Positions 28,792 through 33,070 of a stretch of 41,370 nt of DNA are shown piece after piece (the stretch's first letter is position 1; every line of letters begins with the position of its first letter). Made by a program: the position numbers and the translations under genes. The notes under the pieces are model-generated. The model was not told the DNA's origin, did not search any database, and saw nothing but the letters and a program-made list of their open reading frames with translations. This DNA is from a virus. The stretch covers positions 1-41,370 of the IMG/VR virus record IMGVR_UViG_3300025319_000044; one strand, 5' to 3'.

Positions 28792-29352
28792 TTATTTTTT
28801 AATAACTTGGTTACACACAAATTCGTGTTGTCTACCTTGCATAGTAAGTTTTATTGCAAATTTTGTACTGCACTCTACTGAGAATGCACACTCATTTGAT
28901 ACTTCTTTATGCCAGTAGTCACTAATCATAAATAAACCTCGGTCTGTACTTGTCTTCGGATTATTTCCTTTTGTATTTGTAAGTTTCGGATTAAGAGAAC
29001 TTTCACATTTTGCAATTTTTACCAACCAATCTGGCCATTTGAAGTTTTCTTCTTTTGCAATTCTTCGGATTGCCCGTTCAACACTTTCACCAGCATTTGC
29101 ACTCTTTGTTTGTATAGTCGGGATTCCCAGTATATTTTCTACTTTTGATATTTCTTTTGCTTGAGCTTTTTGTATGAATTGATGTGAGAATATTGTTCGT
29201 GGAGTGAGACTTGCAATATATCGTTGTGTATATTGGTCTATGGCTCCAAAGGCACATACTGCTACTACGAATACCACAATTAAGATTTTCCAGTATAAAT
29301 ATTGTTTTTTGATTGCCTTAGTTATGTAAACTCTTTTTGTGCGATTTTTCAT
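28792..29352 (-). CDS. Membrane-anchored lysozyme-like / lytic transglycosylase
   Basis: A 186-residue protein. A basic N-terminus is followed by a transmembrane helix at about 21-38 (WKILIVVFVVAVCAFGAI) and a linker. A lysozyme-fold domain starts near residue 100, with catalytic Glu117 in IAKCESSLNP, then DRGLFMISDYWH and CAFSVECSTKFA, which are standard transglycosylase-like segments. Cys116 is next to the Glu, and a Cys pair near 155-160 could form a disulfide outside the membrane. It should act on peptidoglycan from the outer face of the membrane. It lies among early genes, far from the late lysis cassette, which is odd for an endolysin. Confidence 0.75.
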   Translation of the reverse strand: MKNRTKRVYITKAIKKQYLYWKILIVVFVVAVCAFGAIDQYTQRYIASLTPRTIFSHQFIQKAQAKEISKVENILGIPTIQTKSANAGESVERAIRRIAKEENFKWPDWLVKIAKCESSLNPKLTNTKGNNPKTSTDRGLFMISDYWHKEVSNECAFSVECSTKFAIKLTMQGRQHEFVCNQVIKK

Positions 29353-29372
29353 ATTTGTATTTATATTAGTTT

Positions 29373-29534
29373 TTAATCTTCATCTAGGATTTGAAGCCTT
29401 GATACTTCGATTGTCGCTTTACGCCATTTTTCTTTTGGAAGTTTGCCTGTTCTCATGTCGAGATATAGTTGTTGTTTTGTTTTACCGTATTTTTTAGAAT
29501 ATTGGTAAACACTTATCCATTTTTCTTCTGTCAT
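29373..29534 (-). CDS. Excisionase-like small HTH protein (53 aa)
   Basis: A 53-codon ORF reading WISVYQYSKKYGKTKQQLY from residue 6, the shape of a MerR/excisionase-like winged helix (helix, turn, recognition helix). It starts at ATATG, between the lysozyme-like gene and the HNH gene. It may be a small transcription factor or recombination-directing protein; no integrase is present in the window, which favours a regulator. Confidence 0.55.
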   Translation of the reverse strand: MTEEKWISVYQYSKKYGKTKQQLYLDMRTGKLPKEKWRKATIEVSRLQILDED

Positions 29535-29535
29535 A

Positions 29536-29958
29536 TCATTTCGTAAGTATTAACATTATTTCTTGTAAACTTTCTTCTGTAGTCGTTATATCGAATGTGA
29601 TATATGGATAATTTATTCTGTTCATCACCCATTTACGAGCTAATAACTTAATTTTTAAACCAGCTCGTATTCCATACCCTAACCCGTTTAACTCTTTTTC
29701 AGACCAATGCGGTAAATCGATAATTCTTTTGTATTTTATACTAAGTCTACCCTGTATATATTCCCGCTTGTCTTCTAGTCTTTCAAAAACTTTATTGCCT
29801 GCAATGTTGTTGCATTCTCGGCAAGCGGGGACTAAATTTTTTCTTGGTGTTTGTCTCAACGATCTTTTTCGTCTTCCAGGATGCATGTAAGTCCATGGTA
29901 CAAAAAGATCCATAGTATCCCCGAAACTCCCGCAATACACGCATTCCAATTTTGACAT
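29536..29958 (-). CDS. HNH endonuclease
   Basis: A 140-residue protein. Zinc ligands CVYC (6-9) and CREC (46-49), a histidine-containing strand (FVPWTYMHPGRRK, about 19-31) and NLVPACRECNNIAGNKVF (41-58) make an HNH core. The C-terminal half is basic and may bind DNA. It is the first gene downstream of the structured segment with two promoters, so it may be expressed early and strongly. It could be a homing enzyme or part of DNA packaging; free-standing HNH is safest. Confidence 0.72.
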   Translation of the reverse strand: MSKLECVYCGSFGDTMDLFVPWTYMHPGRRKRSLRQTPRKNLVPACRECNNIAGNKVFERLEDKREYIQGRLSIKYKRIIDLPHWSEKELNGLGYGIRAGLKIKLLARKWVMNRINYPYITFDITTTEESLQEIMLILTK

Positions 29959-29995
29959 ATATCGTTTAGATTAACATAGTGTAGATAACCTAGCT

Positions 29996-30025
29996 ATTAT
30001 ACACTATGTATCTATGTCGAGTCAA
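29996..30025 (-). promoter_or_regulatory. Sigma-70 promoter, leftward, before HNH gene
   Basis: On the minus strand TTGACT (30025-30020), spacer of 18, TATAAT (30001-29996). Both boxes are near consensus (5/6 and 6/6). Transcription would start near 29989, about 30 bases before the HNH gene's ATG. Confidence 0.65.
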
Positions 30026-30187
30026 CTTTTGTAAATGAACTATTTTCACACAAGGTGAACGATTTAAAAGGCTGTGTGCTTTCTAAGGGGAGAGGTAGTT
30101 ATCAGCTTGTCAGTGACACCACCTCTTCCTTTTCCAGCGATGAGAAAGTGCTAATCAGCTAACCTCTCTCTTCAACCTTACATACAT

Positions 30188-30216
30188 ACTATACCACATA
30201 TTTATCCACTTGTCAA
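30188..30216 (-). promoter_or_regulatory. Sigma-70 promoter, leftward, near consensus
   Basis: On the minus strand TTGACA (30216-30211), spacer of 17, TATAGT (30193-30188). This is the best promoter match seen in the window. It would drive the structured gene-free segment. The spacer includes a DnaA-box-like TTATCCACT (plus strand, about 30202-30210). Confidence 0.7.
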
Positions 30217-30249
30217 TAGCCTGCGTACGCTACGGTGTTGATAAGTTAT

Positions 30250-30360
30250 CTACGGACGCATATAGACATCTTTTGATAGACAAACAGGGCATCGAACGAG
30301 CATAGAGCCATCTTCGTCATCTAAAAAGGCTTGATTGCTTTGGCAGTGTTGGCAGGTCAT
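30250..30360 (-). CDS. Zinc-ribbon microprotein (36 aa)
   Basis: A 36-codon ORF with CQHC (3-6) and CPVC (24-27), a minimal zinc ribbon. Starts in the context AAATATG and overlaps the end of the 63-residue gene by 44 bases in another frame. Among the smallest of the paired-cysteine proteins in this arm. Confidence 0.55.
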   Translation of the reverse strand: MTCQHCQSNQAFLDDEDGSMLVRCPVCLSKDVYMRP

Positions 30361-30508
30361 ATTTGTTTTGTGTTATTTCGACTTCGAGATTTGTATCGTC
30401 ATATGATAAATACTCGGTGTCGTATGAGTAATAAGTAAATTTCTTTCCGTCTCGCCCTTTCAAAACTATCTTGTATGGAAAGTTAGGTTTTGAGTGAAAG
30501 TGAATCAT
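30317..30508 (-). CDS. Hypothetical early protein (63 aa)
   Basis: A 63-residue, aromatic, beta-rich protein (FTYYSYDTEYLSYDDTNLEV). Its ATG overlaps the upstream stop by four bases, supporting coupled translation. No family recognised; the last part overlaps a zinc-ribbon ORF in another frame. Confidence 0.5.
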   Translation of the reverse strand: MIHFHSKPNFPYKIVLKGRDGKKFTYYSYDTEYLSYDDTNLEVEITQNKYDLPTLPKQSSLFR

Positions 30509-30804
30509 AAAAACTTTTTATAATCTTCGCTAGTAAACCTCCTTCCAAATTCTAATGCGTTATCGTACATTTTTACAACTTTGTTGTATGTTTCAAGTTC
30601 TTTTACAGTAAGGTCTTGTTTGAATAATTTATGTTTAGCCGTCTCTAACATTGTTTCTCCAAAGTACATTCCGTGTTCAACTTGTGCTTTCGATAAATCA
30701 AACTCTAGTTTTCTTGAGTCTCGTATGTCGTCCTCTAAAACTTCTGTAAACAGCATTCTTCGTGCCGCTTCTTGTTCTGGTGTAAGGTCAAGGATGTCGT
30801 GCAT
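30505..30804 (-). CDS. Hypothetical protein following the helicase (99 aa)
   Basis: A 99-residue, highly charged helical protein. Start ATG at 30804 follows the helicase stop by one base (TAATATG); an in-frame ATG at 30825 would overlap the helicase. It could be a helicase loader or partner by position, since helicase neighbours in phages often are, but sequence gives no family. Confidence 0.55.
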   Translation of the reverse strand: MHDILDLTPEQEAARRMLFTEVLEDDIRDSRKLEFDLSKAQVEHGMYFGETMLETAKHKLFKQDLTVKELETYNKVVKMYDNALEFGRRFTSEDYKKFL

Positions 30805-30805
30805 A

Positions 30806-31669
30806 TTATATATAGCTTTTTTCAAACATAACTCCGTTGTGGAAGAGTTTCAACTTTCCAGATTTTCCTCGAACTCGATCTAGCTCGACTGAAAATATAG
30901 CTTCGTTTGTGAATGTTGCGACTGTGGACGACTCACTGGTTTTCTTGGGTGCTTCTGCGTTTGTACAACGATAAAGCATAAATACAACATCCGCCTCTTG
31001 TGTGATAAACGAGGAGTCGCGAATATCAGTCCAGTCAGGTACTTTGTTGTCTTTGATTTTTGCAATATGGCAGATAAGGATTATCGGTATTTCGAGAAGT
31101 ACAGCCATGCGTTTGATCTCACGAACGATCCCGCCGATAATGAACGACGTATTTTTGAAGTCTCGAAGTGGAAGCAAGAAGTGGAGATGATCAATAACCA
31201 CTAGTTTGATACCACGTTCTCTCTTAGCTTTGGCTATAGCCTCAAACATCCACAAATATTGTAATTCTCCGCCTTGCCTATGAAGATCAATGGGCATGAA
31301 AAGCGGTAGATCTGTTGGCGCGATAGGGCACTCGGAACGATCCATATCGTAAAACTTCTCAACTACCTCGTTGTTTCCCATCTCGTATGAAAAGAAAAGT
31401 GATGGTTGTTTATTCTTTGCCATTCGGTACATGATCGTTTGGGCAAAGGTGGTCTTCCCAGATTTTGTTGGAGCTGAGAGTACGTACAAGCGTCCATTCT
31501 CAAATCCACCAAATAAGTCATCAAGTTCTGCAAAGCCTGTTTTTATAGCAGGAGATTTTTCAGTTCTTAGCATTTCAATTGCAAGTTCCTGATAAGACTT
31601 TGTGCTGATAGGTACAACGCGGTCTAGTGTAACACCCTCTTTGAGAGATTTTTCAAGATATTCACTCAT
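30806..31669 (-). CDS. DnaB-type replicative helicase (RecA-like core only)
   Basis: A 287-residue protein with the C-terminal ATPase domain of DnaB helicases and no N-terminal domain. Walker A is APTKSGKT (66-73), the glutamate segment SYEM is at 94-97, Walker B is LVVIDHLH (Asp160), motif H3 is ILICHIAKI near 194, motif H4 is DIRDSSFITQEADVVFMLYR near 214, and the arginine finger segment DRVRGKSGK is near 265. It should unwind DNA at the phage fork, with the host replisome supplying polymerase. It follows the initiator-like gene by four bases, as in many phages. Confidence 0.87.
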   Translation of the reverse strand: MSEYLEKSLKEGVTLDRVVPISTKSYQELAIEMLRTEKSPAIKTGFAELDDLFGGFENGRLYVLSAPTKSGKTTFAQTIMYRMAKNKQPSLFFSYEMGNNEVVEKFYDMDRSECPIAPTDLPLFMPIDLHRQGGELQYLWMFEAIAKAKRERGIKLVVIDHLHFLLPLRDFKNTSFIIGGIVREIKRMAVLLEIPIILICHIAKIKDNKVPDWTDIRDSSFITQEADVVFMLYRCTNAEAPKKTSESSTVATFTNEAIFSVELDRVRGKSGKLKLFHNGVMFEKSYI

Positions 31670-31673
31670 ACAA

Positions 31674-32489
31674 TTATTTTTTAAGTTTTAAATTTTCTTG
31701 ATACCATTCTGAAAGTATTTTATCCCACTTCTCAACAATTTTTCCGAGTGACCACTCCGTAATAGGATTTGGAAGGTTCTCGTAATGGATTTTAGCGATC
31801 TTCATCCGAGAGACTATTTCCTCAAAATGTTGTTCCCTCGTATCTTTTGGATAATTCTTGAGAGCGAGTTTCATCAATTCCTTTGCGGCCTTGAGTTGGG
31901 CAGAGGCTCGATTATTCCCCGTTAGCTTACAATATTCAACCGACACTCGAGCTGGATACTCACCAAACGTATCTTTCTTCTTTGGATTGTCCTCTGAATC
32001 ATAGGTCACTTCTCCGTCGTTCAATTCTTCATACATAAAATTATTTGTTACTGTCGGTGAGCCGTTAGGCGAATCGACTATATTCTTATCATTATTATCA
32101 TTCTTGTTTATAGTGTCGCTTCTGTTTCGCTTCTGTTTCGCTTTTAAATCGCTTTTGCTGTCGCTTTTGTAGTTTTCAATATTCTGGAATTGCTCATATT
32201 TTAGCACAGAAATGAACAGTCCGCGTGTCGCTTTTCGTGTCGCCAACATTCTCCCAACCTTCGACCAACGGATGAAATGGTCAATTTGGCTTTTTGTTGC
32301 CCCTGTCGCCTCTACAATCCACTCGTATTTTAGAAATGCTTCCCCACGTTTAAACTCTTTGTTATCTCTATGGTTTGCTTTATTTACAATATAAAACCAT
32401 ATTTTAAACCACTTATCTGGTTTATTTTTAAATATATCACTATCTAGGGTTTGTCTAGCCCACAAAGTGCAGCCTCCTGGTATTAACAT
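31674..32489 (-). CDS. Phage replication initiator-like protein
   Basis: A 271-residue protein with a winged-helix-like N-terminal domain (WARQTLDSDIFKNKPDKWFK, then EWIVEATGATKSQIDHFIRW at about 49-68), an acidic Asn/Asp-rich linker, and a helical C-terminal domain (about 165-265). This layout is typical of phage O/DnaD-type replisome organisers. It is the first gene of the leftward transcript and directly precedes the helicase. A longer frame from 32564 exists, but its first 25 codons are the leader terminator, so the ATG at 32489 is chosen. Confidence 0.7.
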   Translation of the reverse strand: MLIPGGCTLWARQTLDSDIFKNKPDKWFKIWFYIVNKANHRDNKEFKRGEAFLKYEWIVEATGATKSQIDHFIRWSKVGRMLATRKATRGLFISVLKYEQFQNIENYKSDSKSDLKAKQKRNRSDTINKNDNNDKNIVDSPNGSPTVTNNFMYEELNDGEVTYDSEDNPKKKDTFGEYPARVSVEYCKLTGNNRASAQLKAAKELMKLALKNYPKDTREQHFEEIVSRMKIAKIHYENLPNPITEWSLGKIVEKWDKILSEWYQENLKLKK

Positions 32490-32500
32490 ATTCGACCTTT

Positions 32501-32527
32501 TAAAAACAAAAAAACCGCTTGGAGCGG
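32501..32527 (-). terminator. Intrinsic terminator in the leader of the early operon
   Basis: On the minus strand CCGCT-CCA-AGCGG (32527-32515) is followed immediately by seven U and then GUUUUUA. This is a textbook intrinsic terminator placed 12 bases before the initiator gene's ATG and about 120 bases after the promoter start. It can only work as an attenuator or early stop that must be overcome for early gene expression. Confidence 0.75.
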
Positions 32528-32530
32528 CAC

Positions 32531-32560
32531 ACCTACATAGACCTTTCGGTTTCTGTAGGT
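32531..32560 (-). promoter_or_regulatory. Leader stem-loop with GAAA tetraloop
   Basis: On the minus strand ACCUACA pairs with UGUAGGU (7 bp), with an inner ACC-GAAA-GGU hairpin. It lies just upstream of the leader terminator. It could be the sensory or anti-terminator part of an attenuator; I do not recognise a known riboswitch. Confidence 0.5.
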
Positions 32561-32651
32561 ACACACTCTAAACGGTGTTTTAATAGACGTGTGGTTTGGT
32601 TATATGCGCTCACCTTCAGAATATTTTCATATTCATCGGTACAAGAACTAT

Positions 32652-32682: not shown

Positions 32683-32732
32683 TGTGTATAACTTGTTATG
32701 TATAATTACATTGTGTCAACAGTTTATGCACA
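32683..32732. other. Two DnaA boxes; candidate replication origin
   Basis: TTATACACA on the minus strand (32691-32683) and TTATGCACA on the plus strand (32724-32732) both match TTATNCACA exactly and face each other. The DNA between them is very A/T-rich. They lie between the divergent promoters and beside the replication genes, the usual place of a phage origin. The host initiator DnaA could bind here. Function is inferred. Confidence 0.5.
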
Positions 32733-32742
32733 CCCTAGCCTA

Positions 32743-32771
32743 TTAACACATAGAATTATATAGCGTATACT
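32743..32771 (+). promoter_or_regulatory. Rightward promoter (sigma-70 type)
   Basis: TTAACA (32743-32748), spacer of 17, TATACT (32766-32771); five of six bases match in each box. Start would be near 32778, leading toward the late arm, with an intrinsic terminator about 75 bases downstream. Confidence 0.7.
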
Positions 32772-32831
32772 GTAAACATAAGTATAAAATGGATTCGTTA
32801 TGTCAAGCAATCCACAATATAATACTATTCG

Positions 32832-32858
32832 ATAGGCTCTTTTTTGGCCTATTTTTTT
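32832..32858 (+). terminator. Intrinsic terminator in the rightward leader
   Basis: ATAGGC (32832-32837) and GCCTAT (32847-32852) form a 6-bp stem followed by six or seven T. It sits directly before the ATG at 32861, so the rightward promoter would yield an RNA of about 80 bases unless termination is bypassed. It mirrors the terminator in the leftward leader. Confidence 0.65.
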
Positions 32859-32860
32859 AT

Positions 32861-33070
32861 ATGAAATTTAAAAAGAATAAAGTTATAAACCCATCCTCTT
32901 CAAATTGTTTTGACGGCTTAGAAGTTGTTAATATTATTTTTGATAAATCTGCTCCACATTGTGACGTCTTGTTTCAGGCTCTTGAAGGTCTTGTCGTGAG
33001 GAAGTTTGCTAGTAGAAAAGAAATAATGGAAGAGTGGCACAACTTGTTATCTTGTGAATTGGAAAAATAA
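32861..33070 (+). CDS. Small rightward protein after the leader terminator (69 aa)
   Basis: A 69-residue protein (segments CFDGLEVVNIIFDKSAP and KEIMEEWHNLLSCELEK). The frame is open from an ATG at 32789, but those first 24 codons pass through the terminator hairpin, so the ATG at 32861 is preferred. As first gene of the rightward unit it could be a regulator of the late arm, such as an anti-terminator; no motif supports this beyond position. Confidence 0.5.
   Translation: MKFKKNKVINPSSSNCFDGLEVVNIIFDKSAPHCDVLFQALEGLVVRKFASRKEIMEEWHNLLSCELEK

Follow-up and report, generated by a model that had tools for sequence, protein, structure and literature searches.

The gap upstream of an HNH-family gene in this phage raises the question of what RNA is made from it. 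The first-pass annotation proposed that one of two promoters in the gap is devoted to an RNA product, a phage small RNA not yet described. We addressed whether this RNA stands alone or forms the folded beginning of the mRNA of the neighbouring genes, and we conclude that it is most likely a leader, a free-standing small RNA being the less likely of the two.

The phage and its gene order

The window, by which we mean the whole stretch of DNA analysed (41,370 nucleotides), is the IMG/VR record of a 41.4-kb uncultivated tailed phage, and the feature under study lies on its minus strand. Among sequenced phages the closest terminase belongs to Bacteroidota phages, at less than 60% identity. A contig of the L007 record bridges window ends 1 and 41370 across about 21 bases, so this is a nearly complete genome, either circular or circularly permuted. 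Descending along the minus strand toward the gap, a DnaD-like loader (31674-32564) comes first, followed by a DnaB-like helicase (30806-31669), two small genes (30505-30825 and 30317-30508) and a 36-aa zinc-ribbon-like ORF (30250-30360) upstream of the first promoter, P1. Beyond the gap, on the same strand, lie the gene for a 140-aa HNH-family protein (29536..29958, ATG at 29958), a 53-aa HTH-like ORF (29373..29534) that was overlooked in the first reading and is newly found here, a lysozyme-like gene (28792-29352) and, further along, an ERF recombinase.

The HNH domain is the sole domain match in the 140-aa protein, for which bacterial genomes yielded only partial, distant matches. The protein has DL in place of the catalytic DH of the close relatives compared (TMDLFVP versus TKDHIIP), and through this change of the catalytic histidine to leucine it may be inactive. 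Across the genes of the window a Shine-Dalgarno signal is almost absent, and T stands at -1 in 40 of 45 ATG starts, as against 68 of 228 in-frame ATGs inside genes, which makes 'TATG' a strong start context. Elsewhere on the minus strand, a tRNA-like gene (window 24638-24708) gives an abnormal two-base anticodon call, and a short-period repeat at window 24762-25379 encodes a repetitive Cys-rich protein built of 11-residue units.

Two promoters in a single gap

Both promoters that had been described were present on the minus strand. P1 (30216..30188) reads TTGACA-17-TATAGT with TG preceding the -10 element (an extended -10; 11/12 matches), and the second promoter, P2 (30025..29996), reads TTGACT-18-TATAAT ahead of the HNH ATG at 29958. 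They are the sole sites in the 41-kb window that match at 11 or more of the 12 positions and have a spacer of 16-18, where whole-window shuffles contain 1.5 such sites on average, and both are located in the same single gap. From these sequence matches we infer transcription starting, for P1, at a predicted position of 30181. The further statement that nearly 200 nt are free of ORFs was borne out, as the transcribed stretch holds no minus-strand ORF of at least 20 aa and the P1 RNA contains one ATG (29977) ahead of the HNH start. A peptide-coding leader was rejected because the P1 stretch offers no ORF or usable ATG.

A DnaA-box-like TTATCCAC is found inside the P1 spacer (window 30202-30209) and another, TTATACACA, in the divergent promoter region (window 32683-32691); going by these sequences, an origin or DnaA control is possible. 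On the plus strand at window 32743-32862, a terminator-like GATAGGCTCTTTTTTGGCCTATTTTTTT follows a promoter-like TTAACA-17-TATACT at a distance of about 60 nt and falls within the beginning of ORF 32789-33070; this pair is possibly a second short RNA or an attenuator.

Predicted fold of the P1 RNA

The non-coding 5' stretch of the P1 transcript (30064..30181, minus strand) comprises its first 118 nt, counted from the predicted start. Its folding energy is -41.9 kcal/mol (z -3.56), which 0/200 shuffles equalled, and the plus strand of the same stretch gives z -1.32. As the length of 118 nt was picked to finish with the closing helix, other lengths are the fairer test, and these give z of -2.73 (100 nt), -2.87 (150 nt) and -2.2 (192 nt). 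When the whole genome was scanned, z was -3.5 or lower in 2.0% of windows and -2.7 or lower in 4.4%, so that the folding of the P1 RNA is unusual, not unique. The predicted architecture is a closed three-way arrangement of a closing helix (AAGGUUG/CAGCCUU, 30179-30173/30074-30068) that begins 1-2 nt from the RNA 5' end, hairpin A (30170-30142) and hairpin B (30138-30078). Both hairpins have a probability of 0.99-1.0 in every folding context, and hairpin B taken alone was equalled by 0/200 shuffles. For the closing helix the probability varies with the RNA that is folded: it is 0.93 if the RNA stops at the HNH start, 0.5-0.7 for read-through RNA and 0.04 once HNH coding sequence is included.

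The segment had been called highly structured, and a well-defined fold is indeed predicted at 30064-30181, but the helices named for it were mostly wrong. The supposed outer helix GAGAGG/CCUCUC has an ensemble probability of 0 and costs 8.3 kcal/mol to force; the two segments of a TGTCA/TGACA helix are 1 nt apart and unable to pair; and the inner helix GCTGATTAGC corresponds only roughly to the tip of hairpin A.

These values bear on the possibility that P1 and P2 are real and the RNA between them is functionless, or that the selected feature is the DNA, with its operators, DnaA-box-like TTATCCAC and inverted repeats. Chance folding of this kind would fit the modest z (-2.2 to -2.9) obtained when the length was not tailored to the fold, the 2-4% of genome windows that fold equally well, and the presence of the DnaA-box-like sequence and inverted repeats. 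Against it stand the 0/200 shuffles for both the 118 nt and hairpin B alone, and the finding, described below, that across the group folded leaders are overrepresented behind strong promoters; we consider it improbable.

Search for relatives of the P1 RNA

An Rfam search had been proposed with the original annotation, and in release 15 positions 29000-31500, on both strands, gave no family match up to E 1; Rfam applied to six relatives gave nothing credible. Identity as a group I intron or HEARO was rejected on this lack of an Rfam match. DNA similarity across 50,697 phage and 72,556 plasmid records returned only short pieces at E>=1, and the 17-mer of hairpin A, sought in 2.9 million viral contigs, occurred in the same virus and in one chance match inside a gene. 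Searches for near relatives by DnaB, HNH, terminase and HTH reached same-virus contigs or distant phages only, and a covariance model of the window RNA, run over 1.1 Mb of related phages, matched itself only. The only other copies found were identical ones on contigs of the same virus, in which covarying pairs could not show. The P1 RNA is new to Rfam, has no detectable homologues and is unproven as a small RNA.

Leaders and possible pseudoknots across related phages

The best distant parallel was phage G008 (IMGVR_UViG_3300035698_003640), in which a 12/12 extended -10 promoter is followed by about 170 nt of folded non-coding sequence and then by adjoining homologues of the HTH-like ORF (44%) and the HNH protein (48%), in an order swapped relative to the window. 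In a second phage, L029, with a capsid 69% and a portal 61% identical to those of the window, a strong promoter is followed by a gap that folds (z -3.46, 0/200), and both lie upstream of small genes and a lysozyme/SSB-like block on the same strand. Alignment of the window RNA with the leaders of these two phages was not above shuffles. Other features of the second phage include divergent strong promoters (12/12 and 11/12) at L029:8540-8950 with a common TTATCCACA box; downstream of each lies a non-coding stretch that folds, and the plus-strand one closes in a terminator-like site. At L029:5847-6125 (-) the frame of a Cys-rich protein is interrupted by a single in-frame TGA, which would reflect a pseudogene, a sequencing error or recoding.

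Across the terminase clade, z was below -2 in 36% of 33 leaders of strong intergenic promoters versus 17% of 200 control gaps (p 0.009), while the first paired base lay within 4 nt in 52% of promoter leaders and 46% of controls, no clear difference. In four phages a promoter lies about 90-130 nt before an HNH gene (L033:841+, L118:2856+, L192:2858+ and L061:2069-), and the leader can form an H-type pseudoknot, A-B-A'-B'; the four sequences differ and their geometry is similar. The stack sums, which count stacking only and ignore loop costs, were -45.5 (L033), -41.6 (L118) and -36.0 kcal/mol (L061), each with 0/60 shuffles as good. The L192 pseudoknot, read by eye, combines AACCGTCAG/CTGACGGTT with ACACAAAACCCAT/ATGGGTTTTGTGT; the scan selected a different stem pair, likewise with 0/60 shuffles as good. 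At a threshold of -28 or better, 131 strong promoters were followed by 8 pseudoknot hits, versus 1 in shuffled sequence. For the window RNA itself the stack sum was -28.6, which 6.7% of shuffles (4/60) equalled, and its nested fold is better; a pseudoknot in this RNA is not claimed. A similar leader at L080:833- stands before a non-HNH gene, and at L094:5514 (-) the sequence between a promoter and a replication-like gene downstream holds a near-perfect hairpin of great length (z -7 to -9.5).

The window RNA could belong to a rapidly evolving class of structured RNAs that start at their own promoter and accompany phage HNH (plus HTH-like) modules. In such a class the layout (strong promoter, two hairpins or an H-type pseudoknot, HNH) would be conserved and the sequence would not, and its members would act on the polymerase or on how the HNH module is expressed. 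We put this forward as a tentative and rather unlikely reading.

A hairpin spanning P2

An inverted repeat, ACATAGTGTA/TACACTATGT, flanks the P2 -10 element on both sides, and in read-through RNA only it yields a predicted hairpin (29967..30015, minus strand; core arms 30009-30000 and 29983-29974; z -4.09, 0/200 shuffles) that ends 8 nt before the HNH ATG. The predicted P2 RNA starts within the hairpin loop and lacks the 5' arm, so that in it the hairpin cannot form. In RNA reading through from P1 or from upstream, the P2-spanning hairpin would cover the HNH start region, which has no Shine-Dalgarno sequence, and transcripts from P2 would leave the HNH start free for translation. In both RNAs the HNH ATG itself pairs in part with the HNH coding sequence, which makes the size of the hairpin effect uncertain.

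This geometry has published counterparts. In T4 gene e and I-TevI a hairpin lies over the start region in longer upstream transcripts, and RNA structures reduce initiation of Aeh1 mobE, with T4 segB implicated likewise, the last two being stand-alone homing endonuclease genes (PMC3014915). Like P2, these genes have a promoter within a hairpin that covers the start region in longer transcripts only, and for the homing endonucleases the likeness includes the HNH protein gene downstream of P2. The placement of the hairpin 5' arm upstream of the promoter's predicted start, which marks the I-TevI/mobE type, was found at P2/HNH and not in the P1 RNA. By the same logic, from hairpin geometry, we infer lower HNH translation from long transcripts. 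The window differs from the T4-type cases in having no Shine-Dalgarno signal, a promoter that is sigma70-like and not T4 late, a lost catalytic histidine, and an extra structure, the P1 RNA, about 100 nt upstream. Control of HNH by the P2 hairpin appears better grounded by precedent than a role for the P1 leader, and the P2 palindrome could instead be an operator, for example for the HTH-like protein.

Leader or small RNA

The idea that P1 is devoted to an RNA product found no support, as no intrinsic terminator occurs after the fold or anywhere downstream on the minus strand over 9 kb, to 20.5 kb. The P1 transcript should therefore extend into HNH and the genes beyond, which makes its folded part a 5' leader. 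We accordingly give about an even chance to a model in which the P1 RNA forms a structured 5' leader, acts in cis and belongs to a transcript that continues into HNH, the HTH-like ORF and later genes. P1 would then be an operon-internal promoter whose transcript opens with the folded 118 nt. Structure close to the 5' end can protect an RNA, and the two stable hairpins together with the near-5'-end helix would protect this one and/or set its reading. HNH would be under separate control via the P2-spanning hairpin. In favour of this model we count the P1 sequence, the stable fold that begins at the predicted start, the lack of terminators downstream, the geometry of the P2 hairpin with its published counterparts, the layouts of G008 and L029, and the better folding of promoter leaders than of control gaps in related phages. 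Against the leader reading, P2 already supplies HNH with a promoter, the closing helix drops to 0.04 with the HNH coding sequence, and the window RNA has no sequence similarity to the G008 and L029 leaders and no covariance-model match in 1.1 Mb.

A stand-alone small RNA of about 115 nt, closed and folded, ending or cut near CAGCCUUUU and acting in trans on a protein or on RNA of the phage or its host, is possible though unlikely. It would account for a closed fold bounded by the predicted start and a CCUUUU end, for a stretch with one ATG and no ORF, and for the separate promoter of HNH; yet there is no terminator-like site, the closing helix depends on context, and homologues were not found. 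As a small RNA the element has a promoter of its own, by sequence, and lacks a terminator or defined 3' end. What stands of the original proposal is a promoter-driven, non-coding folded RNA, predicted from sequence and with no Rfam match; its stand-alone status is unproven. T4 RNAC and RNAD (named in PMC3014915) are likewise non-coding transcribed phage stretches without known function, transcription being predicted in our case, but the P1 RNA has no defined 3' end and lies outside a tRNA region.

The P1 RNA also resembles the put RNAs of phage HK022 (PMC9378689), in resemblance only: its transcript opens with two hairpins directly after a strong phage promoter, as putL lies just downstream of PL. 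In a put-like role the nascent leader would bind RNA polymerase in cis and promote read-through of later pauses or terminators. The P1 RNA is 118 nt and not about 70, no sequence relation to put is established, and the minus strand, with no intrinsic terminators for 9 kb, offers little to suppress. Because no terminators lie downstream, to 20.5 kb, a need for antitermination by polymerase contact is doubtful, and we rate this reading lower, as very improbable.

Structured RNA upstream of an HNH gene is also known from the HEARO/OMEGA RNAs with IscB. The P1 RNA differs in having no Rfam match, and the 140-aa protein has an HNH domain match only.

Taking the leader as the preferred reading, the P1 element has a convincing promoter sequence and a credible folded RNA, and is ordinary in kind, a structured phage leader.

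Implications

If transcribed, the P1 RNA would be an uncatalogued RNA structure in a phage with almost no Shine-Dalgarno signal, and given that near-absence mRNA folding may be one of the main means by which translation is set. Through the P2 hairpin, timing control of HNH genes as in T4 would reach a phage that is unrelated and uncultivated. In related phages folded leaders recur before HNH genes, and several of these leaders are possible pseudoknots; this recurrence turns a single odd stretch into a testable rule.
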